Shown: piece after piece, positions 19,485 through 43,212 of the stretch
Position numbering within the stretch: position 1 is the stretch's first letter
Layout of the letters: every line of letters begins with the position of its first letter
Source: Patescibacteria group bacterium
GTDB lineage: Bacteria; Patescibacteriota; Microgenomatia; UBA1406; GWC2-37-13
Assembly (NCBI GenBank): GCA_026415975.1
Contig: JAOAFZ010000007.1
Location: forward strand, 1-48,190
Reading direction: 5' to 3'
DNA length: 48,190 nucleotides
Program-made: the position numbers and the translations under genes
Notes under the pieces: model-generated
What the model saw: the letters and a program-made list of their open reading frames with translations, nothing else
Database searches by the model: none
What the model was told of the DNA's origin: nothing

Positions 19485-21833
19485 ATGGAGATGCTTACCG
19501 AGCTTGCAAATGCGGCGGCTCTTATCGGAATTGTACTGGTCGCGTTCCTGTTTGCGATCGGGTTTTCCGTGGGTTTTTTCTATCTGATCGTGCTTTACAA
19601 CCGGGTCAAGAAGCGCGAAGAATCGTCTCTTGAGATGGTTACGCTTGAAGTAAAGCTTCCCAAGGAAAACGAAATTAAAGTAGACGTGGCAGAACAGATG
19701 TTTGCATCATTCTCTGCGCTTAAGCCGAGGGGATTTTGGTCGTTTTTGGAGATTTCGGACATGATCTGCTTCGAAATAGTCGGCAAACACACCGATATCC
19801 GGTTTTACGTCTCCGCACCAAACAAACTCATTGACCTTGTCGAAAAAACGATCTACGGGTACTACTCCTCCGCGGATATCGTAAAAGTAGAAGAGCCGAA
19901 TATCTTTTCCGAAAAAGGAAAGGTCTCGTTTGCCTCCCTGAAAACCGAAAGTAATAGTTATTATCCGCTCAAGAGCTATCGCGACATGCCAAACGATCCG
20001 ATGGCAGCACTTACCTCTGCCCTTTCCAAGATGAACGAAGGGGAAGGTGCCATGGTGCAGTTCCTGCTCCGCCCGGCAGACTCAAAGTGGAAAAATGCCG
20101 GGAAATCATTTATTTCGAAGACAAAAAAAGACGAAGCCAACGCGGAAAAGGCGAAGTTTGAGGTCGATCCGAAAGATCTGGAACGTATCGACGAAAAGTT
20201 GTCACGTCCCGGATTCGAGACAATCATCCGCATCGTGGTATCCGCTTCCAGCTCCGATATCGCCGATATGCACCTGCGAAATATCGTTGCCGCTTTCAAG
20301 CAGTTCGACTCGCACCAGCAGACTCTGGGGGAGGCGAATATCTTCTTCAAGCAGGGATTCATGATTAACTTCATTTATAAGTTCTTCCCGGTCTGGGAAC
20401 CGCCGTTCGGGAAGGTTACCTCGATTCTTTCCTCCGAAGAATTGGGTTCGCTGTTTCATTTCCCAAATAAGACTGTCGAAACGCCTCATATCCAGTGGCT
20501 CAAGGCAAAAACAGCGCCAGTATCTGCAGAGGTCCCCACAAGCGGCGGAACGTTCATGGGCACAGCTTACTATCGAGGAGTCAAACGTCCCGTTCACATC
20601 CACCTGAAAGACCGCATGCGGCACGTCTATATTATCGGGAAAACCGGCGTAGGAAAATCAGAGCTTCTTAAGGAAATGATCAAGCAGGACATTAAAGAGG
20701 GAAAGGGTGTCTGTGTTATCGATCCGCATGGGGATCTTATAGACGACACCCTCCGCTATGTCCCAGCCGAACGAGCCGAAGACGTTATTCTTTTTGATCC
20801 CTCCGATGTGGAACGCCCCATTGGGTTAAACCTGCTGGAGTGCCGAAGCGAGGAAGAGAAACACTTTATTACCTCGGCAATCATTAACCTTATGTACAAG
20901 CTCTACGACCCGCAGCGAACGGGTATCATCGGGCCCCGGTTCGAGCACGCCGTGCGGAACGCCATGCTCACGGTTATGTCAGAGCCGGGCACCTCGTTTA
21001 TCGAGATAGTCCGCGTACTCACTGATCCTAAGTACGTACAGGAGCTTCTGCCAAAAGTGGACGATCCGATTGTACGCCGCTACTGGACCGATCAGATTGC
21101 TCAGACCTCAGACTTCCACAAATCGGAAACGCTTGACTACATCGTCTCCAAGTTCGGCCGCTTCGTTACAAACAAAATGATGCGCAACATCATCGGACAG
21201 TCAAAGTCAGCGTTCGATTTCCGCGAGATTATGGATACCGGCAAGATTCTGCTGATCAACCTCTCCAAAGGAAAACTGGGCGAAGAGAACTCGCAGTTTT
21301 TGGGACTGGTCATTGTACCAAAGATCCTGGCCGCCGCCATGAGCCGTGCCGATGTGCCCGAAGACCAACGCCGCGACTTCTTCCTGTACGTTGATGAGTT
21401 CCAGAACTTCGCCACCCCCGACTTTGCTGTTATTCTCTCGGAAGCACGGAAATATCACCTTGGCCTTACCGTTGCAAACCAGTTCATCGGTCAGATGGAC
21501 GAAGAGGTCAAGAATGCCGTCTTCGGAAACGTGGGCACGATCATCTGCTTCCGTGTCGGAGTGGCGGATGCCAATTTTATCCAGCGCGAATTCCAGCCAT
21601 TCTTTAATGAGAGCGATATTATCAATGTGGAGCGGTTCCATGCCTACATGAAGACCCTAGTAAATAACGAACCGGTCGATCCCTTCTCGGTAGACATGAC
21701 CAAGGACATGGAGGAGCTCAAGAAAGAACGGAATGAACAGATCGCGCAAGCAATTACCCAGTTATCCCGCCTCAAGTTCGGCCGCCCCCGCGAGCTTGTG
21801 GAGGCAGAGATTGCAACGCGGGCGCGGCTTTAG
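19485..21833 (+). CDS. VirD4/TraD-like coupling ATPase
   Basis: The 782-residue protein has an N-terminal TM segment (~8-38), a ~340-residue middle domain and a C-terminal FtsK/HerA-type ATPase. Motifs are Walker A GKTGVGKS at 385-392, VIDPHGDLIDD at ~411-421, and Walker B LYVDEFQNF with Asp637-Glu638 followed by TPDFAVILSEARKY and an NQF sensor-like element. This is the TraD/TraG-DNA-binding group that pumps DNA or protein substrates into type IV secretion machines. It lies ~18 kb from the VirB4/PrgI cassette of this window, so the machine is encoded in at least two loci. CPR genomes keep such genes on the chromosome, which suggests DNA uptake or contact-dependent transfer; that role is inference. 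Confidence 0.9.
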   Translation: MEMLTELANAAALIGIVLVAFLFAIGFSVGFFYLIVLYNRVKKREESSLEMVTLEVKLPKENEIKVDVAEQMFASFSALKPRGFWSFLEISDMICFEIVGKHTDIRFYVSAPNKLIDLVEKTIYGYYSSADIVKVEEPNIFSEKGKVSFASLKTESNSYYPLKSYRDMPNDPMAALTSALSKMNEGEGAMVQFLLRPADSKWKNAGKSFISKTKKDEANAEKAKFEVDPKDLERIDEKLSRPGFETIIRIVVSASSSDIADMHLRNIVAAFKQFDSHQQTLGEANIFFKQGFMINFIYKFFPVWEPPFGKVTSILSSEELGSLFHFPNKTVETPHIQWLKAKTAPVSAEVPTSGGTFMGTAYYRGVKRPVHIHLKDRMRHVYIIGKTGVGKSELLKEMIKQDIKEGKGVCVIDPHGDLIDDTLRYVPAERAEDVILFDPSDVERPIGLNLLECRSEEEKHFITSAIINLMYKLYDPQRTGIIGPRFEHAVRNAMLTVMSEPGTSFIEIVRVLTDPKYVQELLPKVDDPIVRRYWTDQIAQTSDFHKSETLDYIVSKFGRFVTNKMMRNIIGQSKSAFDFREIMDTGKILLINLSKGKLGEENSQFLGLVIVPKILAAAMSRADVPEDQRRDFFLYVDEFQNFATPDFAVILSEARKYHLGLTVANQFIGQMDEEVKNAVFGNVGTIICFRVGVADANFIQREFQPFFNESDIINVERFHAYMKTLVNNEPVDPFSVDMTKDMEELKKERNEQIAQAITQLSRLKFGRPRELVEAEIATRARL

Positions 21834-21859: not shown

Positions 21860-22441
21860 CTATTGCGTTGGAGTGGGTGATCGCGAAGGTGTAGGAGTAC
21901 GCGAAGGCCCACCCACGGTGACTGTGGGTAGCTGGGTGGGTCTTGGTGGTGGCGTATTAGTTACAGGACCGCCACCACCGGGTGTAATTTTCAGAATTTT
22001 TGGCCCTTCAGGATTTACCGTGTAGTAAACCAGTTCGTCCTCCGCCCTATTCTCTCCGCCTTCCAGAAGTGTACGTAAGCTGTAGCTCTGCCCGTCCTCG
22101 CTCAAAAGATACTCATACCCGTAAAACAACCCGGTATCTCCCGCTTCACGCCCTTCATAGGAATCTTTCACTATCTCGGATAAATACCCTCCCGAAACCA
22201 GAGTCTGTAGCCAGTTTGCTTGTTCCGGGTATCTTCCTTCGTTCGCCCGATATTGTTCCAGCGCACCCTGGAGTTTATTCAAGTCGTTTTTCCGTTGAGT
22301 ATCCCGCGCCTGTCGGGAAAAATTCGAGTATGCCACCACCGGCAAAGCAATCAGAATCGCCACTATCGACAATGCAATTAGTATCTCAATCAGCGTAAAA
22401 CCTTTAGAAAAACCGGTATTGAGCTTTTCTCGCAGCAACAT
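21860..22441 (-). CDS. Type IV pilin/pseudopilin with Pro/Thr-rich tail
   Basis: The 193 residues start with a short basic leader ending in KG followed by FTLIEILIALSIVAILIALP, the class III prepilin cleavage site (G before F) and assembly helix with Glu at +5. Next come an ARDTQRKNDLNKLQGALEQYRANEGRYP segment typical of PulG/PilE-like pilins and a small beta region. An unusual ~45-residue C-terminal tail rich in Pro/Thr/Gly (ITPGGGGPVTNTPPPRP..., RTPTPSRSPTPTQ) follows. TATAAT ends 6 nt before the ATG. Processing by a PilD-type peptidase and assembly into a pilus are expected; the tail may be glycosylated. Confidence 0.92.
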   Translation of the reverse strand: MLLREKLNTGFSKGFTLIEILIALSIVAILIALPVVAYSNFSRQARDTQRKNDLNKLQGALEQYRANEGRYPEQANWLQTLVSGGYLSEIVKDSYEGREAGDTGLFYGYEYLLSEDGQSYSLRTLLEGGENRAEDELVYYTVNPEGPKILKITPGGGGPVTNTPPPRPTQLPTVTVGGPSRTPTPSRSPTPTQ

Positions 22442-23815: not shown

Positions 23816-24721
23816 CTAGAAGCTGGTTACCCAGAAATCTGCGGGAAACTGAGGGTACGACTGGAAAATTTCTGCAACACGGGTCAGCCCTGCCTGGGCA
23901 GTGGGCACTGGTGTGCCTGCTCCCGGAGTTACCGCCAGAGCGGCACGTGCAATGGCCTTGATAGTGCGCCCTTGCGGAGGAAACTGACTGGTACCGTCTG
24001 TCTTAAACCCTATTCGGGTAGGTCCAAAGTAATTCTGCACGAGAATAAACTTTGCACTCTCGTATTCACCGGTATCGATAATTTTCGTTGCACAGGCGTA
24101 CTCGTAGCCGTCTATATTTCCACCGCCTTCGCCTTCTACACAAGTCGGATCATCGCTAATAACACACTTGAAAATATCCCGATTTGTCGTGCCCCGATAA
24201 ATCTTATCGCCCGCATCAGAAATAAACGTTTCGGCTTCATAAATATAATCACTGTCCTTATCGTACACCAGCGTCATAACAAGGGAAACATCTTCGCAGG
24301 TGCCGGTCGGTGAGTCATAAAGTACCTGAAAACCGATCAGATACTGCCGGTCAAAGTACGGGAACTCTGGAGTGTATTGAGACAAATAGAACATGTATTG
24401 TTCATCTTTATTCAAACGCTTCGTACTAAACTGTTTAACTGGGAATTCACTGATCTCAACAAAACTGTTATCTACGTTTATACCGCCCAGATTCGACAAT
24501 CCAAGATCTGCAAATGATCCACTGCGCCCTTCCAAAAGTGCTTTTTCTAATGCCGCTTCCGCGGCGGTAATCGTGAGCTGTGATTGCTGATTTATGCCAC
24601 CGATCTGAGTTTGCGTCGACGTCTGGAAAATCGCGGTCATACCCACGATAAGTAACGTACCGAGCACCATAATAAGAAGCAGGAGAACCTGCCCTGAGTT
24701 ACTGGATCTGTTTCCACGCAT
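23816..24721 (-). CDS. PilX-like envelope protein (minor pilin class)
   Basis: The 301 residues start with a polar patch and then a long hydrophobic segment (SGQVLLLLIMVLGTLLIVGMTAIFQ, ~9-33) followed by TAAEAALEKAL. This is the pattern of PilX/PilW-type pilus assembly proteins, in which a Glu after the TM helix begins an amphipathic helix. The rest is an extracellular beta-rich domain with paired cysteines (GTCEDV, DIFKCVISDDPTCVEG, YEYACATK). The chosen start, MRGNRSS, overlaps the end of the previous gene by 23 nt, suggesting translational coupling. It is the last gene of a four-gene minus-strand operon headed by the S74 autoprotease. Confidence 0.75.
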   Translation of the reverse strand: MRGNRSSNSGQVLLLLIMVLGTLLIVGMTAIFQTSTQTQIGGINQQSQLTITAAEAALEKALLEGRSGSFADLGLSNLGGINVDNSFVEISEFPVKQFSTKRLNKDEQYMFYLSQYTPEFPYFDRQYLIGFQVLYDSPTGTCEDVSLVMTLVYDKDSDYIYEAETFISDAGDKIYRGTTNRDIFKCVISDDPTCVEGEGGGNIDGYEYACATKIIDTGEYESAKFILVQNYFGPTRIGFKTDGTSQFPPQGRTIKAIARAALAVTPGAGTPVPTAQAGLTRVAEIFQSYPQFPADFWVTSF

Positions 24722-26069
24722 AGTCTGCTGTCGAGAAATACGGTAACATCGAGAAATACATGGATGGATTGTGTACCACAAAGAGTACAGGCCGGCGGGA
24801 GTCATAGCGGCGACGGTCATTCTGGAATCTGTTAAAAACACTCAAGTTCCCCTTGATCTTCAACCCGAAAAGATCCCTGCCATTTGTAGGCTCAATCACC
24901 AGATTTTCGGTAATCAATATCGCGTTAATTGTATTTACATGATTATTTTCATCGCCGGAGCTGCGGATTGTGGTAGTACCGGTCACAACAATTGCGAGCG
25001 GATATGGCACGTATCCGGCACAGTTAGCAAAGTAACTCGGCGAACGACAATGATTAATGTCACGGGTAATAACAAGGTCACCGTCTACTACAAGCACAAA
25101 AGAGTTCATACCAGTCAAGACGCAGCCGGGCGTAATCACCCCACCTTCAAGATTGGTGGTATTTGTAACCGTTGCTCCGGTGTAAGTACAGGTTCCGCGT
25201 ACCGGACCGTTTGTAGCATTCGTTACCACTGCTTTAACGGTGCCGAACATTTTACCCTCTCCTCCCGGGCCGGGCCCGATGAACCGTCCTTTGAACAGAT
25301 TGTTTTCCACCACTCCATTCAGTTGGACAGTACCACTAGTATTTGAGTTATTTAACGCGGAGCCCTCTGCTGTCATTGTAATTGTGGAAGAAATCACTGC
25401 TCCTCCCCGTTTCGGTCCACTCGGAATGATAAACTGATCTGCTCCGTTGTCAAAGTCCGACTCATTTACCAGCAACACCCCGTTTTCAGGCTTGAACACA
25501 TTTACCCGATTCGCCTCAAATTCGTCCCGAATATTCGTTATACGCTTCACCTGTTTTCGTGCATTCGCATAATCAAGGAAGCGCCTCGGGCTAAAACTCC
25601 GCTGTTTTGTGTAACCATCTACCACCCAGCCGGAACTGACGGCAGTCTCATCGTTTAGGGCGCCAAACTCCGGTGCGGAAACAACTCCCGGAGGAATCTG
25701 ATCACGGGTCTCAGGATCTGTAGAATCACTGAGCATAAACTGGGGAAGATTCTCATCATCCGGATCATTTTCGTTAAACTTTTTCCGGGTTGCAGCATTC
25801 TGGGGAATCTGAAAGTTCTTGAATGTCTCCGCATTGAGCGCGTGAAAGGAAAAAGTTTTTACCTTGATCCAGGGGTTATCCGGAACTGGGGTAGGCGTTG
25901 GAGAAATACACCCGAAAGAGCTACCCGCCCCGCACGACTGATAAATCTCCATGAGGCTGCATGATTCCTGCGCGCATGCCGGTTCACGAGCGGGGTGCGC
26001 GAAGAACGCGAAAAAAAAAAGAAGGGCGAAAGTAAGAAGCGCGATACAAAAATCACGAGGTGCTTTCAT
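24699..26069 (-). CDS. Secreted protein of unknown function in the S74/pilus-like operon
   Basis: The 456-residue protein has a signal peptide (hydrophobic 8-25, ending near PACAQ) and a short Cys-rich patch (ESCSLMEIYQSCGAGSSFGC). Next come a Pro/Thr spacer and a long beta-rich domain with an ITMTAEGSALNNSNTSG-like repeat-poor region and several Cys (TPGCVLTGM, INHCRSPSYFANC). Its C-terminal 140 residues (LVVDGDLVI, AIVVTGTTTI, INAILITENLVI, IKGNLSVF) read as successive beta-helix rungs. This resembles the PilX-associated or polymer-forming cytoskeletal (bactofilin-like) style, but no family is certain. The start is 9 nt after the previous stop, with GTGAGGG as a plausible ribosome-binding site. 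Confidence 0.72.
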   Translation of the reverse strand: MKAPRDFCIALLTFALLFFFAFFAHPAREPACAQESCSLMEIYQSCGAGSSFGCISPTPTPVPDNPWIKVKTFSFHALNAETFKNFQIPQNAATRKKFNENDPDDENLPQFMLSDSTDPETRDQIPPGVVSAPEFGALNDETAVSSGWVVDGYTKQRSFSPRRFLDYANARKQVKRITNIRDEFEANRVNVFKPENGVLLVNESDFDNGADQFIIPSGPKRGGAVISSTITMTAEGSALNNSNTSGTVQLNGVVENNLFKGRFIGPGPGGEGKMFGTVKAVVTNATNGPVRGTCTYTGATVTNTTNLEGGVITPGCVLTGMNSFVLVVDGDLVITRDINHCRSPSYFANCAGYVPYPLAIVVTGTTTIRSSGDENNHVNTINAILITENLVIEPTNGRDLFGLKIKGNLSVFNRFQNDRRRYDSRRPVLFVVHNPSMYFSMLPYFSTADYAWKQIQ

Positions 26070-26078
26070 ATCATACCC

Positions 26079-26909
26079 TCACGGTAACGGTGTAATACTT
26101 TGCCCAACCTGTGCAGAGCTGGTACCTGCTGGCGTGGTTTGGGGGACAGCCATGTTTCCTTCAGCACCCGGCGCCATGGGTGTTGGGAGAATCTGGACAG
26201 AACGTGCCCGTACTGCACCAGTCCCCGGTTTTTGCTCAGTTTGCACCACTACTACCGCTCCCTTACTGATATCGGTTATCCGCCCTCGCGCGGAGGAAGG
26301 GCCAGGCGCCGATCCGGGAGGGCTCAGTATTTGTGCACCTTCTGGTACTAAAACCTGAAAGGTATCGGAATCGGCAAATGCATTTAATGCATTAAGCCGA
26401 ACTGCTGTACCTACAATTGTTATGGTCCCATCATTTACCTGCTCTACTGTCCCGGAGAGTGTGTACGCCGGCTTCTCGACGGTAATGCTAGCAGCAACCG
26501 GCGCATCGGGATTTACGCGAAGATCCTCAGCAAGCCGCACAGTAACCTGATCACCCTTTTTGATCTGCGATACATTAAGGCGTAGGGTTGATCCTGGGGT
26601 TGCGTCAAGCGGATCAAAGAGGCTTACCACAGTCTTATCATTTATGGTCACTCGGGAACGCACGTTTTGCCGAGATTCTCCTGGCGCGGAAAAAGGAACG
26701 ATCTCAAGGGTAACGTGCGAATTTGAGGAATCGAGTACTACTCCCCGAAGCTCTTGTATTGGTAGGGTCACTGCCAGTAATAGGTCGGGTTGTATACGAG
26801 AAGCCCCAGTGCTTCTCCCCAGAGCAATTACCAGCATGGCAATATTGACAACCAGCGCAACTAAAACAACCACAACAATAAAGGCACGGAAACCAACTGC
26901 TTTTTTCAT
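26079..26909 (-). CDS. Membrane-anchored beta-barrel-fold protein (DUF5666-like)
   Basis: This 276-residue protein has one N-terminal TM helix (~10-30) followed by two OB-like beta modules: residues ~50-140, with ELRGVVLDSSNSHVTLEIV, and ~150-220, with YTLSGTVEQVNDGTITIVG. A Pro/Ala/Gly-rich tail follows. The pattern xxGxVxxVxxxxITV resembles DUF5666-type domains, offered as a similarity only. Its start overlaps the stop of the S74 gene (ATGA, 4-nt overlap), so the two are translationally coupled. Confidence 0.75.
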   Translation of the reverse strand: MKKAVGFRAFIVVVVLVALVVNIAMLVIALGRSTGASRIQPDLLLAVTLPIQELRGVVLDSSNSHVTLEIVPFSAPGESRQNVRSRVTINDKTVVSLFDPLDATPGSTLRLNVSQIKKGDQVTVRLAEDLRVNPDAPVAASITVEKPAYTLSGTVEQVNDGTITIVGTAVRLNALNAFADSDTFQVLVPEGAQILSPPGSAPGPSSARGRITDISKGAVVVVQTEQKPGTGAVRARSVQILPTPMAPGAEGNMAVPQTTPAGTSSAQVGQSITPLP

Positions 26910-28723
26910 GGGGATTTGTGCGAATTACTAAGTGCTTCAACTTTTTGCTCTAAGCGCTTTATCCTTTCCTCCTGCAATCGAATGATTTCTTGCTGTTTAC
27001 GGACTTGCTCTTCGAGTTTTTTATCCCGTTCCTCGAGCCGAACTATTGATGCACTTACTTCGGCTGAGAATTTCTCATACCTCACGAAGAGCTCTTTTAG
27101 GGCCTCGGTGAGTAACGCCGTCAGGTTTGCATAGGAAACCGACTTGAATCCCTTGGTGTCGCTGGTAACCAAAAATGGGAGCACCTTTTCCACCTCCTGC
27201 GCGATAAAACCCATAGAGTGTTTCTGAAACAGCGGATTATGCTCATGTTCTGGATTGTTCTTCCAATCAAACTCTACCCCGCGAAGCTGAGCAACTTTCT
27301 CAAGAGGTTTTGCTATAGTGCTGATATTTTCCTTCGAACGAAGGTCCGAAAAGTATGAATATCCGTTCGCTGTCACATTGCCGAAGACCGCCAGTCCTCC
27401 ATTAACACTAACAGTTCCACCGGTATCCCAGTTCAGGTAAAGGTTCCGATTCTGTGCACTGGGATTTATCACCAAGTACCCCCCATCTGTGCGAAAGGAA
27501 GGCGCATAGGTATTAATAGACCCATTGAGAAGATAGTAAATTCGATCTTGTAAACCTTGCCGAAATATGATATATTGCGAGGACGATGAGTCCGGTCCTA
27601 GGTACAAATGCCCTGCATAATTCTGGATTGTCGCATGGCCAGCATTTGGCTCAACAAACGCACTATTGTGAGCAAGCATGAGTGCCCCAGTGAAAGAGGC
27701 ATTGCCTTGAACATGAAGCTTTCGACCAGCGATAGGGGCCGCATTGGTGCCAATGGAAACAACCCCGACGTCAGGCTGCAAAGAAAGTGTGTTACAGCAA
27801 CCACCTGCATACGATGCACGGCCGCTCCATACTCCATCGATGTAGCTTTGAATTGCAGACACATTATCACCAGGTCGCCAAAAAACCAAGCCGTCACCAA
27901 TTTCCTCGATATGTAATTTTCCTAAGCTCGAGTACGTTCCAACGCTTAAACTTGAACCAATTCCGGTGTGTCCAGCAATCGAAAATGTTCCTGGTGTATG
28001 CACGCCGTTGGCAAACTCGAGATCTTGATTTAACCGAAGGTATGAATCACTCCCACGAAAAGCCATCTTCCCCGATAGCTCAATATCTCCCGCCACATCA
28101 AGCATGCCAGAAGGAGAAATAGTACCAATGCCCACGCGTCCGTTCGTCTTAACCACCATTAATGGATTAAGTACAGAGGAGCCATTTGTAGCACGGGTGG
28201 TGGTATCGGCGGCAACGCGAAAAGCTTCGTTGTCTCCCAAATTCGTCTGAAATCCCGCAGCGTTCCCATTGTATCTATTTCCGTCTATCACTTTCCAGGT
28301 GCCGTCCCAATACGCATTTTGGTACACGTGAATGTTATCCACACTGGAGAGAAATCCATACCGAGAATCGCTACCGGCTGTGCTGTTCTCAAATCGAATT
28401 CCCTCAGTATTTTGAATGGTGAGTCTGCCTTTTGATTGTCCTGGTGTGTCAACTCCATAACTTTCCGTAAGCCGCGAGTTGCGGATGCGCGCATTGCCAC
28501 CCTCTACTTGCCACACAGCAACGGAGTTGTTCGTGGTTACCGCAGAACACGCCTGTTGTGCCAGCGCATCGTTCCCGATTTTCCTGGAAATACAGTCACG
28601 CAGGTAAGAAGGGAGCGGGGTCATCAAGAGCATCGCAACATCATCTCCAAAGGTAAACACCCCCGAGAGAACTGCAATTGCAGCGATATACACAAACGGT
28701 TTCCTGAATGGGAAAGATGGCAT
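26906..28723 (-). CDS. Phage-tail-fibre-like surface protein with S74 intramolecular chaperone autoprotease
   Basis: The 605 residues have an N-terminal TM or signal segment (~9-27) and then a long repetitive beta domain (~60-450) with phrases typical of tail-spike and bacterial fibre proteins (GRVGIGTISPSGMLDVAGDIELSG, GVVSIGTNAAPIAGRKLHVQGNASF). A C-terminal S74 domain begins at YFSDLRSKENIS. Ser459 and Lys464 are spaced exactly like the Ser/Lys pair that performs self-cleavage in endosialidase-type tail spikes. HSMGFIAQEVEKVLPFLV and KSVSYANLTALLTEALKEL are further hallmarks. A ~50-residue coiled coil (~548-598) follows and would trimerise. It leads a minus-strand operon with two envelope proteins and a PilX-like protein, pointing to a cell-surface fibre rather than a virion part. 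Confidence 0.88.
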   Translation of the reverse strand: MPSFPFRKPFVYIAAIAVLSGVFTFGDDVAMLLMTPLPSYLRDCISRKIGNDALAQQACSAVTTNNSVAVWQVEGGNARIRNSRLTESYGVDTPGQSKGRLTIQNTEGIRFENSTAGSDSRYGFLSSVDNIHVYQNAYWDGTWKVIDGNRYNGNAAGFQTNLGDNEAFRVAADTTTRATNGSSVLNPLMVVKTNGRVGIGTISPSGMLDVAGDIELSGKMAFRGSDSYLRLNQDLEFANGVHTPGTFSIAGHTGIGSSLSVGTYSSLGKLHIEEIGDGLVFWRPGDNVSAIQSYIDGVWSGRASYAGGCCNTLSLQPDVGVVSIGTNAAPIAGRKLHVQGNASFTGALMLAHNSAFVEPNAGHATIQNYAGHLYLGPDSSSSQYIIFRQGLQDRIYYLLNGSINTYAPSFRTDGGYLVINPSAQNRNLYLNWDTGGTVSVNGGLAVFGNVTANGYSYFSDLRSKENISTIAKPLEKVAQLRGVEFDWKNNPEHEHNPLFQKHSMGFIAQEVEKVLPFLVTSDTKGFKSVSYANLTALLTEALKELFVRYEKFSAEVSASIVRLEERDKKLEEQVRKQQEIIRLQEERIKRLEQKVEALSNSHKSP

Positions 28724-28771: not shown

Positions 28772-29152
28772 TCAAGCAGACAGGTACCACTTCACTTCTT
28801 TCAGCAGCTGCTCAGGAGTATAATCGCTCTTTACCAGATATCCCCGGATTCCCAGAGACAGTGCTTTGGCAACCAGTGTGTCCTGACCCAGATTGGTAAG
28901 CAGCACTACCGACAGGTTTTTCGCATCGGCAACGCCCTCTGCTTTCAGTTTTTCCATGACCTGGATCCCATCCATCTCGGGCATCATGATATCCAGCAGT
29001 ATTAGATCGTATTTTCCGGTTTTGATTTTTTCGTAGGCTACGGCGCCGTCAGGCGCAGTGTCTACAGTATATCCCGCCCCGGTCAGGATTGTTACATATA
29101 GCGATTGCAGATCGGTCTCATCTTCAACTACAAGTATTTTTTTTGCATCCAT
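28772..29152 (-). CDS. Stand-alone receiver-domain response regulator
   Basis: The 126 residues form a single CheY-like receiver: acidic pair in VVEDE (10-12), phospho-accepting Asp54 in LLDIMMPEMDG, Thr86 in LLTNLG and Lys108 in LVKSDY. There is no output domain, so it must act through protein contacts or as a phosphorelay step. The frame is open 36 codons upstream, but ATG 29152 is preceded at 10 nt by AAGGAGGTGA, the strongest ribosome-binding site in the window, overlapping the end of the histidine kinase gene. The two are cotranscribed and form a two-component pair. Confidence 0.95.
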   Translation of the reverse strand: MDAKKILVVEDETDLQSLYVTILTGAGYTVDTAPDGAVAYEKIKTGKYDLILLDIMMPEMDGIQVMEKLKAEGVADAKNLSVVLLTNLGQDTLVAKALSLGIRGYLVKSDYTPEQLLKEVKWYLSA

Positions 29153-29162
29153 CCGTTCGGGC

Positions 29163-31334
29163 TCACCTCCTTGCCGAATGCACGGGTAATTGTACGATAA
29201 ACGTCGCGCCCTTATTCTCGCTCGATTGTACCGAAATCTTTCCCGAATGTAAATCAACAATCTTTTTACAGATATACAACCCCAGACCAGTGCCAGCCTT
29301 TGCCCCCGATTTATCGTAGGCGAAGTTTACTTTTCCAAACTTCGTAAAGAGTTTTTCCTGGCTGTCTTTCGGAATGCCGGGTCCATTGTCTGAAATCCGA
29401 ATCACAGCATACTCCTGTTCCTTTGTCAGGACAACCTTTACCATACCTTCTCCGGCGGGAACAAACTTGAATGAATTCATTAGCAGATTCTGAAAGACTT
29501 CACGCAGTTTAGCACTATCACCCTTTACCACGATATCCGGCTCTGTTGAGGTGAATGTAAGGTGAACTTCCTTCTCGTTCGCCTGCAGTCGCATTTCCTC
29601 GCAGAGGCTTTCCAGGAACTCAACCAGGTTGAACTTCTCGGTTTCAAGTTCCAGTTTATTGCGCTCTATACGGGAGATAGTAAGCGTATCGTTAACCATC
29701 ATAATCATCCGCTCGGCAGAATGGTAACAGATTTCGAGGTTGGTGCGCGTTGCGGCATCCAACGGTTTATTTGACTGGTTCAGAGTGAGCCAGAGGTAAT
29801 TCCGGATCGCGGTAAGCGGGGTCCGCAGCTCGTGGGAGGCAATGGATATAAACTCGTCTTTGCGTGCATCCAGTTCCTTCAGGCTGCGGTTGGCATTCCG
29901 CAGACCTGCCGTAGCGGTTTTCACCTCTTTTTTCAGGGTTTCGTTAAAGTTACGGATCTCTTCATATGCCAGCGCATTTTTCACTCCTACCGCTAATTCG
30001 GGTGCAACAATCCGTAATACATCTATATCTCTTGAACTATATGGTTCTCCCGATGCTTTTGGACCGAGGGCAATTACTCCGAACATCTCCCGTTTAATCG
30101 TAAGCGGGAGAATTATCTCAATATCAAATTTCCGGAAGTACTCACGCACTGAGTCATCGGAGAGCTCATGAAACATAACAACCTTATCCGCGTCGATTTT
30201 GTTTGCTTTCCGGGCCTGCCGGTACAGCTCGCGGGGATCGAGTTTCCCATCGCTAAAGTGAAAGCCTTTTCGCCACACATCTTTGCCTCCCTCGTAGAGT
30301 GCAATATAGCTTGAGGTAATCCGCATCTGCAGAAACAACTCCCGAAAAACACCGCCGACCAGCCGGTCCAGGTCGATGGTCCGGGTGGTAACGTCGGTAA
30401 TATCTTTCAGGAGCTTCCGTTCGTCATAGGGATTATGAAAAAATAGCGGCGCCGTGATATGTTCCACAAAACGACGCACCGTAGGCAGTGAATACCCTAC
30501 CGCCAGTGACAGGAGTGAAAAGAACAGTATATTTGAGGAGGTAAGGTCCGTACCAAAGAGGTAACTCCCTATCGATAGCATAGTACTAACGTAGATAACA
30601 GCGGCAGTCGCAAGCAGCGCAAAAAAACTGATAGTCCGGAAAATCAGCAGTTTCAGATCCAGGAAGCGGTGCTTCGCAATGGCGTAGGCCACACATGTCA
30701 GCAATATCACCGCCATGTTCGGTCCCAAGAACACCAACCCCGTGTATCCGAATACTACTGTCGGGATAACGGTTGTCAGCGCCATCGCCGAGAAGGTACC
30801 GATTACGCCGATCAGAAAGTAAAATAGCTGCGCCTTTTCCACACCCTCACTTCTTCGATATTTCAGAATCAGCGCCAGAAACGACACGAGAAACAGCCCA
30901 ACGAAAGCAACGAGAAACACGAGAATTGCAGGCCCGGGCACCGGGACCACACTCCCGTTTCGCAACTCGATTCCGCTAAAGATCATATCAGTCATCGAAA
31001 GTGCAGCCGAGATCAGGCCCATCGACATGACTGATGCCAGAATAACACTCCTGGTCGGGATTTTCTCCCGGGGGAACGTATCCACGAGTAGAAATACCGT
31101 CGGGCCGATAAATGACGTTACAAACATGACGAGACGAGTCCAGGCCAGTTGTTCTTCGAGTGTACCTCCGGGCGGGTTCAGGGAGATGTAGTTAACAATG
31201 ATATAGGTGTTTATTAGGAGTGCTAGCAGAAGAAACAGGCGGTTCGTCCAGCTTCTTCGGTTGCGGAGGAATATGATAGTCCCCATCGTTCCGTTGAGAA
31301 AGAGAACCACCACACTGACAAGTATCTCCAGCAT
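29163..31334 (-). CDS. Multi-TM hybrid-sensor histidine kinase (7TM-type sensor, GAF, HisKA, HATPase)
   Basis: The 723-residue protein begins with about eight TM helices (residues 1-280) of the 7TM/MASE-like sensor type. A GAF-like domain follows (~310-455), then a linker helix and the HisKA box SIASHELRTPLTAIRNYL (His501). The ATPase domain has N-box VFQNLLMNSFKF, G1 DNGPGIP at 649-655 and G2 GTGLGLYI at 681-688. All kinase motifs are intact. TATACT ends 6 nt before the ATG, giving a leaderless first gene, and the receiver protein follows after 10 nt. Signal unknown; the membrane-embedded sensor suggests a lipophilic or membrane-state cue. Confidence 0.95.
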   Translation of the reverse strand: MLEILVSVVVLFLNGTMGTIIFLRNRRSWTNRLFLLLALLINTYIIVNYISLNPPGGTLEEQLAWTRLVMFVTSFIGPTVFLLVDTFPREKIPTRSVILASVMSMGLISAALSMTDMIFSGIELRNGSVVPVPGPAILVFLVAFVGLFLVSFLALILKYRRSEGVEKAQLFYFLIGVIGTFSAMALTTVIPTVVFGYTGLVFLGPNMAVILLTCVAYAIAKHRFLDLKLLIFRTISFFALLATAAVIYVSTMLSIGSYLFGTDLTSSNILFFSLLSLAVGYSLPTVRRFVEHITAPLFFHNPYDERKLLKDITDVTTRTIDLDRLVGGVFRELFLQMRITSSYIALYEGGKDVWRKGFHFSDGKLDPRELYRQARKANKIDADKVVMFHELSDDSVREYFRKFDIEIILPLTIKREMFGVIALGPKASGEPYSSRDIDVLRIVAPELAVGVKNALAYEEIRNFNETLKKEVKTATAGLRNANRSLKELDARKDEFISIASHELRTPLTAIRNYLWLTLNQSNKPLDAATRTNLEICYHSAERMIMMVNDTLTISRIERNKLELETEKFNLVEFLESLCEEMRLQANEKEVHLTFTSTEPDIVVKGDSAKLREVFQNLLMNSFKFVPAGEGMVKVVLTKEQEYAVIRISDNGPGIPKDSQEKLFTKFGKVNFAYDKSGAKAGTGLGLYICKKIVDLHSGKISVQSSENKGATFIVQLPVHSARR

Positions 31335-39437: not shown

Positions 39438-41255
39438 TTACCCTGCCCCTTCGATCAGCGCTTTTTCCTCCTCGGAGGCGATCACCTTGAAGCCCACATG
39501 GCTCTGTCCTGCAAAGAACAGGCCCTCGCCCACACTCGCTGAAAGGAGAAAATGCTTTTCACCACCGGTTAGGTAGAACACTTTAGAAATCCGGTCCACG
39601 GCGGCAGTAGACTGCTTAAGGATAATCTGGAGTGATGAGTTGGTAATAATTGCCTTGCCTTCCTCGGTATTCAGAAAGTCCTCAACGTCCTGCGTAATGG
39701 TGGTAAGCCCCAGCTTATATTTCCTGGCACGCTTTGCAAAGTTATGCAGATACGCACCGGAGTCTTTGTTTTTAATCAGATACCAGGCCTCGTCAACAAT
39801 CAGAACGCGCTTTTTGTGCTCTCCTTTGCGGACACGGTTCCAGATATAGTCGAGCACCACATACATGGCTACCGGCCGCAGGTTTTCCTCCAGATCGCGG
39901 ATACCGAATACAGTAAACGGGTTGCGGATATCAAAGTTGGACTGCTGATTAAAAATTCCAGCCGCAGAGCCCTTTACATACTTTTCCATGCGGTCAGCCA
40001 TCTCCCGTGCTTCCGGCGTCTCCATCCCGATGAACACCTTATACAGATCCTCCAGGAGCGGTGGTTCCAGCTTAAAGGTTTCAGGGTCTTGGGTAATCCC
40101 CTTGTTGCGGTAGGTAAGAACCAGCGCACGATCCAGCATGGCATCCTGCGTGGGAGTAAGCTCTCCCATCATAACCCGCAAAAGTGAGTGCAGGTCCAGG
40201 ATCTTATTCGAGAGTTCGTCCGGTTCGGGGCTTTCCACTGCTATTTCGAAAGGATTGATCTTGTACTGGGAATTGCTCGCAAACTCCACAAACTCGCCGC
40301 CTACTGCTTCGGCAATGTTTTTGTATTCGTTCTCCGGGTCTAGAATAATCACATCTACACCCATCATTAAGAGCCGCAGACATTCCAGTTTTACCAGAAA
40401 CGACTTTCCCCCTCCCGACTTCCCCAGAATCACACTGTTCGAGTTCTCCAGGGTAAAGCGGTCGAAGATAATCAGCGAGCCATCATGCTGGTTAATGCCG
40501 TACAAGATTCCCTCGTTCCGAGTGAGTGATGCCGTTGAAAACGGAAAGGTCATCGCAAGAGAAGTCGTGTCCATGTTCCGCCATACCTGGAGCTTATCCA
40601 TAAACATGGGAAGGGTTGATTTAAAGCCTTCTTCGTGCTCCAACGTGGCCACCTTGCCAATGATCAGTAACGAGGATAGTGTGTTGTCAAGTTCCTTGGT
40701 AACCGAATCCAGCTCTTCAAGGGTATCTGCCGGTATAGTCACATAGAGTGCGAACTGAAAAAACCGCTCGGCTCCTTTCGCCAGCTCCGCCTGTAACGAG
40801 AGTGCATCATCGAGCGCTACCTGCACCGTCGGATCCACAACCTTTCCGGCCTTGATGTCGGTTTCGATAGTAGCCTGCATTTCGGCAATCTTTTTCTTCA
40901 GCTGATCCAGCACCACCTTGGATTCCGTCGGATACACATACATAGACACAAAGAGAGGATGATCATAGGTAATAAGCGAGTATAGCCAGTTCGCGGAAAC
41001 ATACCGGGGATACCCCACTACAAAGATCGTACGATAATACCGGTCATCGATCTTAAGGTGATTAAAGTCCACCTCAACGTACGAGGGTGCAATGATATCC
41101 TTGATACTGAACGCACCGGCCGCCAGCGTTTCCGCGACATTCGGGAACTTCGAAGGAATCGGAATCCCTTTTGCGTTCACCGGTGTCTGTTGCGGATGCG
41201 CAGGAGGCATGCCGGGCTGTGCCGGCTGCTTCGGTTTGCCGCCGAATAAACCCAT
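39438..41255 (-). CDS. VirB4/TraC-type secretion ATPase
   Basis: This 605-residue protein has a Pro/Gln-rich start (7-30), an N-terminal alpha/beta domain (~45-230) and a TraG/VirB4 ATPase domain. Walker A is GKSGGGKS at 278-285, then VDVIILDPENEYKNIAE, then Walker B RVLIVDEAW with Asp488-Glu489, YLHNFAKRARKYKLGLTTITQDVEDFL and the final arginine-finger-like segment ITNSSLQIILKQS. It would power assembly or transport of a type IV secretion-like machine at the cytoplasmic membrane. TATAGT lies 8 nt before the ATG, so it may have its own promoter although it follows the TraC-like gene by 109 bp on the same strand. Confidence 0.93.
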   Translation of the reverse strand: MGLFGGKPKQPAQPGMPPAHPQQTPVNAKGIPIPSKFPNVAETLAAGAFSIKDIIAPSYVEVDFNHLKIDDRYYRTIFVVGYPRYVSANWLYSLITYDHPLFVSMYVYPTESKVVLDQLKKKIAEMQATIETDIKAGKVVDPTVQVALDDALSLQAELAKGAERFFQFALYVTIPADTLEELDSVTKELDNTLSSLLIIGKVATLEHEEGFKSTLPMFMDKLQVWRNMDTTSLAMTFPFSTASLTRNEGILYGINQHDGSLIIFDRFTLENSNSVILGKSGGGKSFLVKLECLRLLMMGVDVIILDPENEYKNIAEAVGGEFVEFASNSQYKINPFEIAVESPEPDELSNKILDLHSLLRVMMGELTPTQDAMLDRALVLTYRNKGITQDPETFKLEPPLLEDLYKVFIGMETPEAREMADRMEKYVKGSAAGIFNQQSNFDIRNPFTVFGIRDLEENLRPVAMYVVLDYIWNRVRKGEHKKRVLIVDEAWYLIKNKDSGAYLHNFAKRARKYKLGLTTITQDVEDFLNTEEGKAIITNSSLQIILKQSTAAVDRISKVFYLTGGEKHFLLSASVGEGLFFAGQSHVGFKVIASEEEKALIEGAG

Positions 41256-42024: not shown

Positions 42025-43176
42025 TTACAAGAGTTCGCGGGAATGAAATTCAAGGGGATGCGGGTTTTCCGGCTGTACTGCAACTTTCATTGTATCAAAA
42101 AAATAGGTTCCGTTCGGATCCTTGATCTCAAAAGTGTATTCACCGGGGGGAAGCGGATTAAAGGTGGCAAATATACCGTGTGGATTTGTTTTAAGAATAC
42201 GCTGGGGCTTTCCCTCAGAGTCTTTTACGTAAATCATAATCCCGGGAAGCGGTATCTTTTTTTTATTTTTCACTACTCCCATAAAGAAAGGATGAGTAGG
42301 AGGAATAACGACTGGAACAGGGGGTGCAGTCTTTGCTGGTGGCGGTGCGGGAGGTGGCGACGCCGGTTGTGGGGGCGGAGAGGGAATTGTTGCAGTAGGT
42401 GCTACTACCACTGCGGGCACTGAGACTACCGGTGTGGGGACAGCTTCGGTTGCCGCAGAGGCGGAGGGTGGCGCCTCCTGAACCTCAACACGCATCACCG
42501 GGGCTGGAGCGGCCGGGACTTGGGCCGGATATGTGGCAGGGGCAGGCGCCGGAGCACCAAGCGGAGCTCCCCCAATACTCTGAGCCAGTCCTGCAAACGG
42601 ATTGGCGGGAGATACCGGCGGAGGTTCAGAAGCAGTAGTCGAGGCAGATACGGGAGCTACCGGTGCCGGAACATCCTCTGCCCCCGGAACGGGAATCGGC
42701 GCCGTTGATGTTAGTTGTGCCGATGATGCCTGCAATAAAGCGCCAACCTGTTTTTTCCGGTAGTTGGCTTTCGGTTTTTGACGGGTCATGGCAAGATACT
42801 GAGAAAGTTTCTCCCGCGATTCCACGTGCGCAAGCATATGATGGGGATCCGCGAGAAAGTAGAGGTCTTTTAAAAAGTACAGCGGATCATTCTTTTTATG
42901 GTAATAGTACTGAGTGGGTGCCTGCAACCGCTTCCAAAGGTTTTTTACCCATACATCCAGAGAACGGTCGTATATCGGGACAAACGCAGTGACTACACCG
43001 GCACCACCCACCAGAAATGCCAGAATAAAGCCGATAAACTTGATCGGGAATATCTGAAAAACCACATAGGCAGCCGGCAATGATACTGCCAGGTACAAAA
43101 ACTGCCGCAATGTCATGAAACCGATGAGCTTGAACTCAAAGGTGGTGATCTGACGTGGAACCGGATGCTGATCCAT
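42025..43176 (-). CDS. PrgI-family membrane protein with Pro/Ala linker and C-terminal carboxypeptidase-regulatory-like domain
   Basis: The 383 residues start with the PrgI signature region (residues 1-75: FEFKLIGFMTLRQFLYLAV, two TM helices, FVPIYDRSLDVW). A cytoplasmic stretch follows (~80-150), then a ~150-residue Pro/Ala/Val-rich linker. A C-terminal Ig-like domain comes last (PFFMGVVKNKKKIPLPGIMIYVKDSEG..., then LPPGEYTFEIKDPNG), as in carboxypeptidase-regulatory or SdrD-like repeats. ATG 43176 is chosen over an upstream start because TATACT ends 7 nt before it, with TTGCTC 17 bp further up. It heads the cassette PrgI - TraC-like - VirB4. Confidence 0.88.
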   Translation of the reverse strand: MDQHPVPRQITTFEFKLIGFMTLRQFLYLAVSLPAAYVVFQIFPIKFIGFILAFLVGGAGVVTAFVPIYDRSLDVWVKNLWKRLQAPTQYYYHKKNDPLYFLKDLYFLADPHHMLAHVESREKLSQYLAMTRQKPKANYRKKQVGALLQASSAQLTSTAPIPVPGAEDVPAPVAPVSASTTASEPPPVSPANPFAGLAQSIGGAPLGAPAPAPATYPAQVPAAPAPVMRVEVQEAPPSASAATEAVPTPVVSVPAVVVAPTATIPSPPPQPASPPPAPPPAKTAPPVPVVIPPTHPFFMGVVKNKKKIPLPGIMIYVKDSEGKPQRILKTNPHGIFATFNPLPPGEYTFEIKDPNGTYFFDTMKVAVQPENPHPLEFHSRELL

Positions 43177-43183
43177 GGATTCT

Positions 43184-43212
43184 AGTATAGCTGTTCGGAA
43201 AGGTTGGAGCAA
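43184..43212 (-). promoter_or_regulatory. Promoter of the PrgI/TraC/VirB4 cassette
   Basis: TTGCTC (43212-43207), a 17-bp spacer and TATACT (43189-43184) on the minus strand. The -10 ends 7 nt before ATG 43176, predicting a leaderless message. Confidence 0.6.

Follow-up and report, generated by a model that had tools for sequence, protein, structure and literature searches.

Gene organization of the locus

The window analyzed here, a stretch of 48,190 nucleotides, is contig C8 of a 1.31-Mb Patescibacteria genome (10 contigs, completeness 96.6%). Four genes, named P1 to P4, are all present on its minus strand, and the features of the locus are as follows.

28652..28696, minus strand: N-terminal hydrophobic segment of P1 (about residues 10-24), a membrane anchor or uncleaved signal, read from the sequence
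26906..28723, minus strand: P1, a 605-aa putative cell-surface fibre protein with an N-terminal hydrophobic anchor or signal, a beta-rich stem, an S74 domain and a C-terminal coiled coil (profile and sequence evidence)
27089..27349, minus strand: S74 domain of P1 (residues 459-545), an intramolecular chaperone predicted to be self-cleaving, with the Ser459 codon at 27347-27349 and the Lys464 codon at 27332-27334 (Pfam, alignment, matches to 6f45 and 7dc3)
26918..27082, minus strand: coiled coil at the C terminus of P1 (residues 548-602), of the kind that usually follows an S74/ICA domain (weak coiled-coil family matches, heptad pattern)
26079..26909, minus strand: P2, a 276-aa membrane-anchored protein with predicted OB-like beta barrels, a conserved partner gene of fibre genes (structure prediction, gene order, overlap with P1)
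24699..26069, minus strand: P3, a 456-aa secreted protein with a predicted C-terminal beta-solenoid, forming a conserved pair with P4 (family searches, predicted structure)
23816..24721, minus strand: P4, a PilX-like, minor-pilin-like protein (family searches, start revision)
28772..29260, minus strand: response regulator upstream of P1, possibly on the same transcript (domain match, spacing)
29163..31334, minus strand: histidine kinase upstream of the response regulator (sequence and kinase family match)
21860..22441, minus strand: T2SSG/N_methyl pilin-like protein, related to the pilins found downstream of fibre-P2 in relatives (domain match)

The stop codon of P1 and the start codon of P2 overlap in the sequence ATGA (26906-26909); P1 ends in CCATGA and the ATG within it is the start of P2, which bears out the translational coupling of these genes proposed in an initial annotation of this DNA. 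P2 and P3 are separated by 9 nt. The likely start of P4 is the ATG at 24721 and not the GTG at 24841, giving an overlap of 23 nt with the end of P3. The response regulator and histidine kinase genes, not mentioned in the initial annotation, lie directly upstream of P1 on the same strand at a distance of 48 nt.

The window also carries genes for a VirD4-like coupling ATPase (19485-21833), a VirB4-like ATPase (39438-41255) and a PrgI-like protein (42025-43212), which are parts of a type IV secretion-like system. Between 31223 and 33331 there are four overlapping minus-strand ORFs in changing frames, which may represent one gene with frameshifts or assembly errors; no PHROG matches were obtained among those scanned.

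The S74 domain of P1

P1 residues 459-519 matched the Pfam family Peptidase_S74 with an E-value of 1.5e-14 and a score of 54.5 bits, against a curated cut-off of 22. Ser459 and Lys464, contained in the motif SDLRSK, fall on the dyad columns of this family and are five residues apart, the same spacing as in endoNF (S911/K916) and MyRF (S587/K592), confirming the earlier assignment of P1 as an autoprotease-type S74 fibre with its dyad spaced as in endosialidase. The N-terminal membrane segment described for P1 corresponds to the hydrophobic stretch listed above. The stem is rich in G, S and N and has a few 'VGIGT..P...L'-like motifs. No DNA-binding or enzyme domain was recognised in it, and within the family the relatives of P1 shared only the S74 domain and short repeats.

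The conservation of the dyad was determined by aligning 94 S74 rows from Patescibacteria, among which a few loci may be duplicated. Both columns are covered by 89 rows, and Ser and Lys are both kept in 88 of them; therefore, as judged by this conservation, self-cleavage of P1 is probably functional. By sequence (E <= 0.01), P1 had just two solved relatives: 6f45, a long tail fibre of a phage (E 9e-6), and the ICA domain of MyRF (7dc3, E 0.006). MyRF is cut just before its serine S587, and the substitutions S587A and K592A both abolish cutting (PMC8326128). Since this serine is equivalent to Ser459, a cut just before Ser459 is the right expectation for P1. The likeness to the MyRF ICA (PMC8326128) extends from the shared domain to a near-identical site (SDLRAK in MyRF), a coiled-coil-like C terminus and, probably, a beta-helical stalk; on the other hand, MyRF frees a transcription factor.

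The same chaperone and self-cleaving domain is present in phage S74 spikes and fibres, such as endosialidase endoNF, the T5 L-shaped fibre and the T4-like long tail fibres. P1 differs from these proteins in that virion genes were not found nearby and in that a hydrophobic N terminus replaces the virion-binding one.

Self-cleaving S74 fibres on the bacterial surface are already known from Bdellovibrio (PMC10769870). The mosaic adhesive trimer (MAT) protein Bd3182, which has an SDxxxK motif, cleaves itself, and the S782A substitution blocks processing and abolishes localisation in prey (PMC10769870). Like the S74 branch of the Bdellovibrio bacteriovorus MAT proteins (PMC10769870), P1 is a cellular fibre that carries SDxxxK in a terminal S74 domain, with a variable stem and tip and several copies per genome, and its best matches in named genomes were from Halobacteriovoraceae and Bacteriovorax. 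In contrast to the MAT proteins, P1 belongs to another phylum with another cell envelope, and its type of gene is associated with those for P2, pilin and ligase. The MAT capping-loop motif V-G-G/N-pi-X-X-P-X-X-X-L had no match in P1 in its published form, a related VGIGTISPSGML occurring once, and for this reason P1 was not filed as a MAT member.

Occurrence of S74 genes in the phylum

Peptidase_S74 was detected in 92 of 380 genomes sampled evenly from the phylum; within the family, 17 of 72 genomes carried it. In a separate search, named S74 records came from Parcubacteria, Portnoybacteria and Roizmanbacteria, which, like the small genome and its VirB4/PrgI-type and PilX-like genes, points to Patescibacteria. 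Beyond the phylum, P1-like S74 genes occur in Bacteriovorax, Halobacteriovoraceae, Bacteroidota and others. The neighbours of the S74 genes were identified by reading the first residues of their products, and those recognisable were housekeeping genes (e.g. ribosomal proteins, gyrase, NDK) or uncharacterised, not virion genes. Since both phage and cellular matches were found, the S74 domain is common to phages and cells, and the P1 copy lies in a cellular setting: P1 is a cellular S74 protein.

The genome itself has a second S74 gene, on contig C7 (9717-16358), an ORF of more than 2,200 aa with a long stretch beyond the S74 domain. The domain is internal and not terminal in this protein, and a similar tail end is found in the S74 proteins of two other genomes (G031 and G016).

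P2 and the gene order fibre-P2-pilin-ligase

P2 was predicted (mean pLDDT 77) to have one N-terminal helix followed by small beta barrels, and OB-fold proteins, CusF for example (TM about 0.7, target side), were among the Foldseek local matches of the model. A Pfam identity for P2 was discarded, the matches to DUF5666 and others being weak and below threshold. The family seemed nearly absent by single-protein search; with a profile, 8 of 72 family genomes proved to have it, and in nearly every one of them a fibre gene adjoins P2 or lies near it. P2 directly follows an S74 gene in the window, in G007 and in G455, and is further downstream of one in G023, whereas in G025, G021, G036 and on contig C5 of the same genome as the window it follows fibres without S74.

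The usual order around P2 is fibre, P2, pilin and a protein here called O-antigen-ligase/TPR. A pilin also follows the S74 gene in five genomes (G031, G016, G007, G451 and G436). The ligase/TPR protein is a membrane protein of about 670 aa with TPR repeats, for which one of six members gave a weak O-antigen-ligase match; matches to the ligase-like family, weak in some cases, were obtained in 70 of 72 family genomes. A ligase/TPR gene was located at most four genes downstream, on the same strand, of 14 of 94 S74 genes from several families, where about 1 would be expected by chance (a rough estimate from 82 genes with enough sequence, four positions and about 3 such genes per 1,000, not a formal test). 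The window locus has no adjacent ligase gene; the copy of this genome is on contig C7. Because many S74 genes have no P2, pilin or ligase gene alongside, the module is not obligatory. These data uphold the initial annotation in so far as it described a cellular, non-phage, probably self-cleaving S74 surface fibre accompanied by an anchored beta protein; in relatives, pilin-like genes accompany such fibres.

The fibre-P2-pilin operon on contig C5 (6897-10954) is the second of this genome, and its fibre has 646 aa and no S74 domain. This fibre ends in a different C terminus, 'DLAE...GVVS', which recurs in family fibres at three further loci (L313, L320 and L323) and is possibly an alternative C-terminal folding or capping domain. 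A phage G2-type chaperone was considered for this end on the basis of resemblance only; Pfam gave no match and the identity is not claimed.

P3 and P4 form a separate pair

P3 was found in 30 and P4 in 43 of the 57 genomes searched. The two genes are adjacent, often with a flavin/NAD oxidoreductase and the VirD4-like ATPase nearby, in loci that contain no S74 gene; synteny of the VirD4-like gene with P3-P4 extends across much of the family, at about 70% identity. P3-P4 is therefore a separate pair, a secreted protein with a predicted beta-solenoid and a PilX-like, minor-pilin-like protein, conserved in most family members without S74.

The P3 model was poor overall (pLDDT 58.7) and gave no significant Foldseek match; its C-terminal beta-solenoid was predicted better. 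When this solenoid was compared by VIA, ice-binding proteins and Thermus ComZ tied at Z about 9, little above unrelated models, the values for ComZ, a competence pilin, being Z 9.1 and rmsd 4.8 over 215 residues. In the P4 family 16 of 29 members match PilX_N (PF14341), but the P4 of the window itself is below threshold. Among known systems, PilX-type minor pilins and Thermus thermophilus ComZ come closest to the pair, which differs from them in that P3 and P4 are two genes and P3 shows no pilin N terminus.

In one genome (G022, contig C54) the kinase-regulator pair of the window is conserved directly before P4, without S74, P2 or P3, which suggests that these two genes go with P4 rather than with the fibre.

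Alternative explanations

The S74 domain is best known from phages, and P1 could be a decayed or recently acquired phage tail fibre, the remnant of a prophage. In PHROG it matched chiefly tail fibre and baseplate proteins, for the most part only through its S74 end, and the viral contig that matched best (53% over residues 410-571) has phage-like genes. However, the listed matches in 50,697 phage records reached only 25-39% identity, and viral contigs, at the sensitivity of the search, yielded no relatives of P2 or P4, P2 being a single-protein query. Apart from the S74 end of P1 itself, the window, whose proteins were scanned together with part of the small ORFs, gave no recognisable capsid, tail or integrase protein; the sole match labelled terminase was a 50-residue ATPase stretch of the VirD4-like protein. 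This agrees with the earlier statement that capsid, terminase and tail genes do not surround P1. With the dyad intact and housekeeping neighbours across the phylum, a prophage origin of P1 is largely refuted by the neighbourhood, phage and viral searches and we regard it as extremely improbable. It is also very unlikely that P1 works like MyRF, its self-cleavage freeing one half as a signal, perhaps sensed by the upstream kinase-regulator pair, with adhesion not the point. The S74/ICA similarity to MyRF and the closeness of the kinase and regulator genes on the same strand would fit such a role, but the stem of P1 is long and fibre-like and the domain types searched for were not recognised in it. 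Moreover, no kinase-regulator pair was seen beside the other S74 genes whose neighbours were read, and in G022 such a pair precedes P4 in a locus without S74.

The initial annotation had joined all four genes into one dedicated organelle, which could resemble a pilus: P4 would be its minor pilin, P3 its solenoid tip and P1-P2 its fibre. Several observations are consistent with it: the tight spacing and overlaps from P1 to P4, the PilB/PilT-type ATPases of the genome, the resemblance of the P3 solenoid to Thermus ComZ and, in G075, a P3-family gene two genes past the S74 gene. The closest link between pilus and fibre was found in G063, a genome of another family, where a type IV pilus cluster (contig C8 of that genome, 82000-100000; ATPases, platform protein and several pilins, read from the sequences) leads to a P4-like PilX gene and directly on to an S74 fibre. 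Nevertheless, the order P1-P2-P3-P4 was present in no other genome examined, S74-P2 occurs without adjoining P3-P4 in G007 and G455, and the ComZ match ties in Z with ice-binding beta-solenoids. Loss of the order in relatives was the outcome that the initial annotation had named as refuting its reading. Since P3-P4 stands without S74 in most relatives and fibre-P2 belongs to another recurring order, the four-gene claim fails in favour of two modules, and a single organelle seems unlikely.

Proposed function and significance

Taken together, it is likely that P1 is a membrane-anchored, self-trimerising surface fibre with P2 as its partner, that fibre-P2 belongs to a surface-fibre locus and that P3-P4 is a separate pair. 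P1 would be exported while its N terminus stays in the membrane. The coiled coil and the S74 domain would then bring three chains together, after which the beta stem would fold and the S74 domain would release itself by a cut immediately before Ser459, so that a stable fibre with an exposed tip remains. Such a course would come close to the behaviour of Bd3182 in Bdellovibrio (PMC10769870). P2, an anchored protein with predicted OB barrels, may help to export, anchor or space the fibre. The locus formed by fibre, P2, pilin and O-antigen-ligase/TPR genes probably builds glycosylated surface appendages for attaching to other cells, and P3-P4 would be a widespread pair that now adjoins fibre-P2 in the genome of the window. 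Attachment is the most likely function of the P1 fibre, whose mechanism would resemble that of the S74 branch of the Bdellovibrio MAT adhesins. A bolder proposal, which we consider possible although somewhat doubtful, is that fibre-P2-pilin-O-ligase encodes an attachment organelle of Patescibacteria that is glycosylated, linked to pili and not described before; its trimeric host-recognising fibres would be built by C-terminal domains that can replace one another (S74 or the non-S74 'DLAE' type), and P2 would be a dedicated anchor.

Among the factors by which Patescibacteria may recognise and hold other cells, type IV pili have been tested most (PMC12206443, PMC10633639). In cultivated Patescibacteria these pili contribute to host binding (PMC12206443), with which adhesion by P1 would agree, and the T4SS cluster of a Saccharibacterium has been reported to include essential pilin-like genes (PMC10633639). 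No paper pairing S74 or endosialidase with Patescibacteria or CPR was found in the literature searched, most subscription papers being outside its scope. Thus, of the undescribed adhesion system suggested initially, the principle was already known from Bdellovibrio (PMC10769870), whereas the wide occurrence of S74 fibres in Patescibacteria and the repeated association of fibre, P2, pilin and ligase genes appear to be new. These fibres, which recur throughout the phylum and often have pilin and sugar-ligase genes next to them, are good candidates for hooks that hold other cells. If so, S74 fibres, present with an intact dyad in about a quarter of the sampled genomes of the phylum, would be a second candidate class of adhesins, parallel to that of Bdellovibrio, and P2 would be a conserved partner protein to study alongside them.
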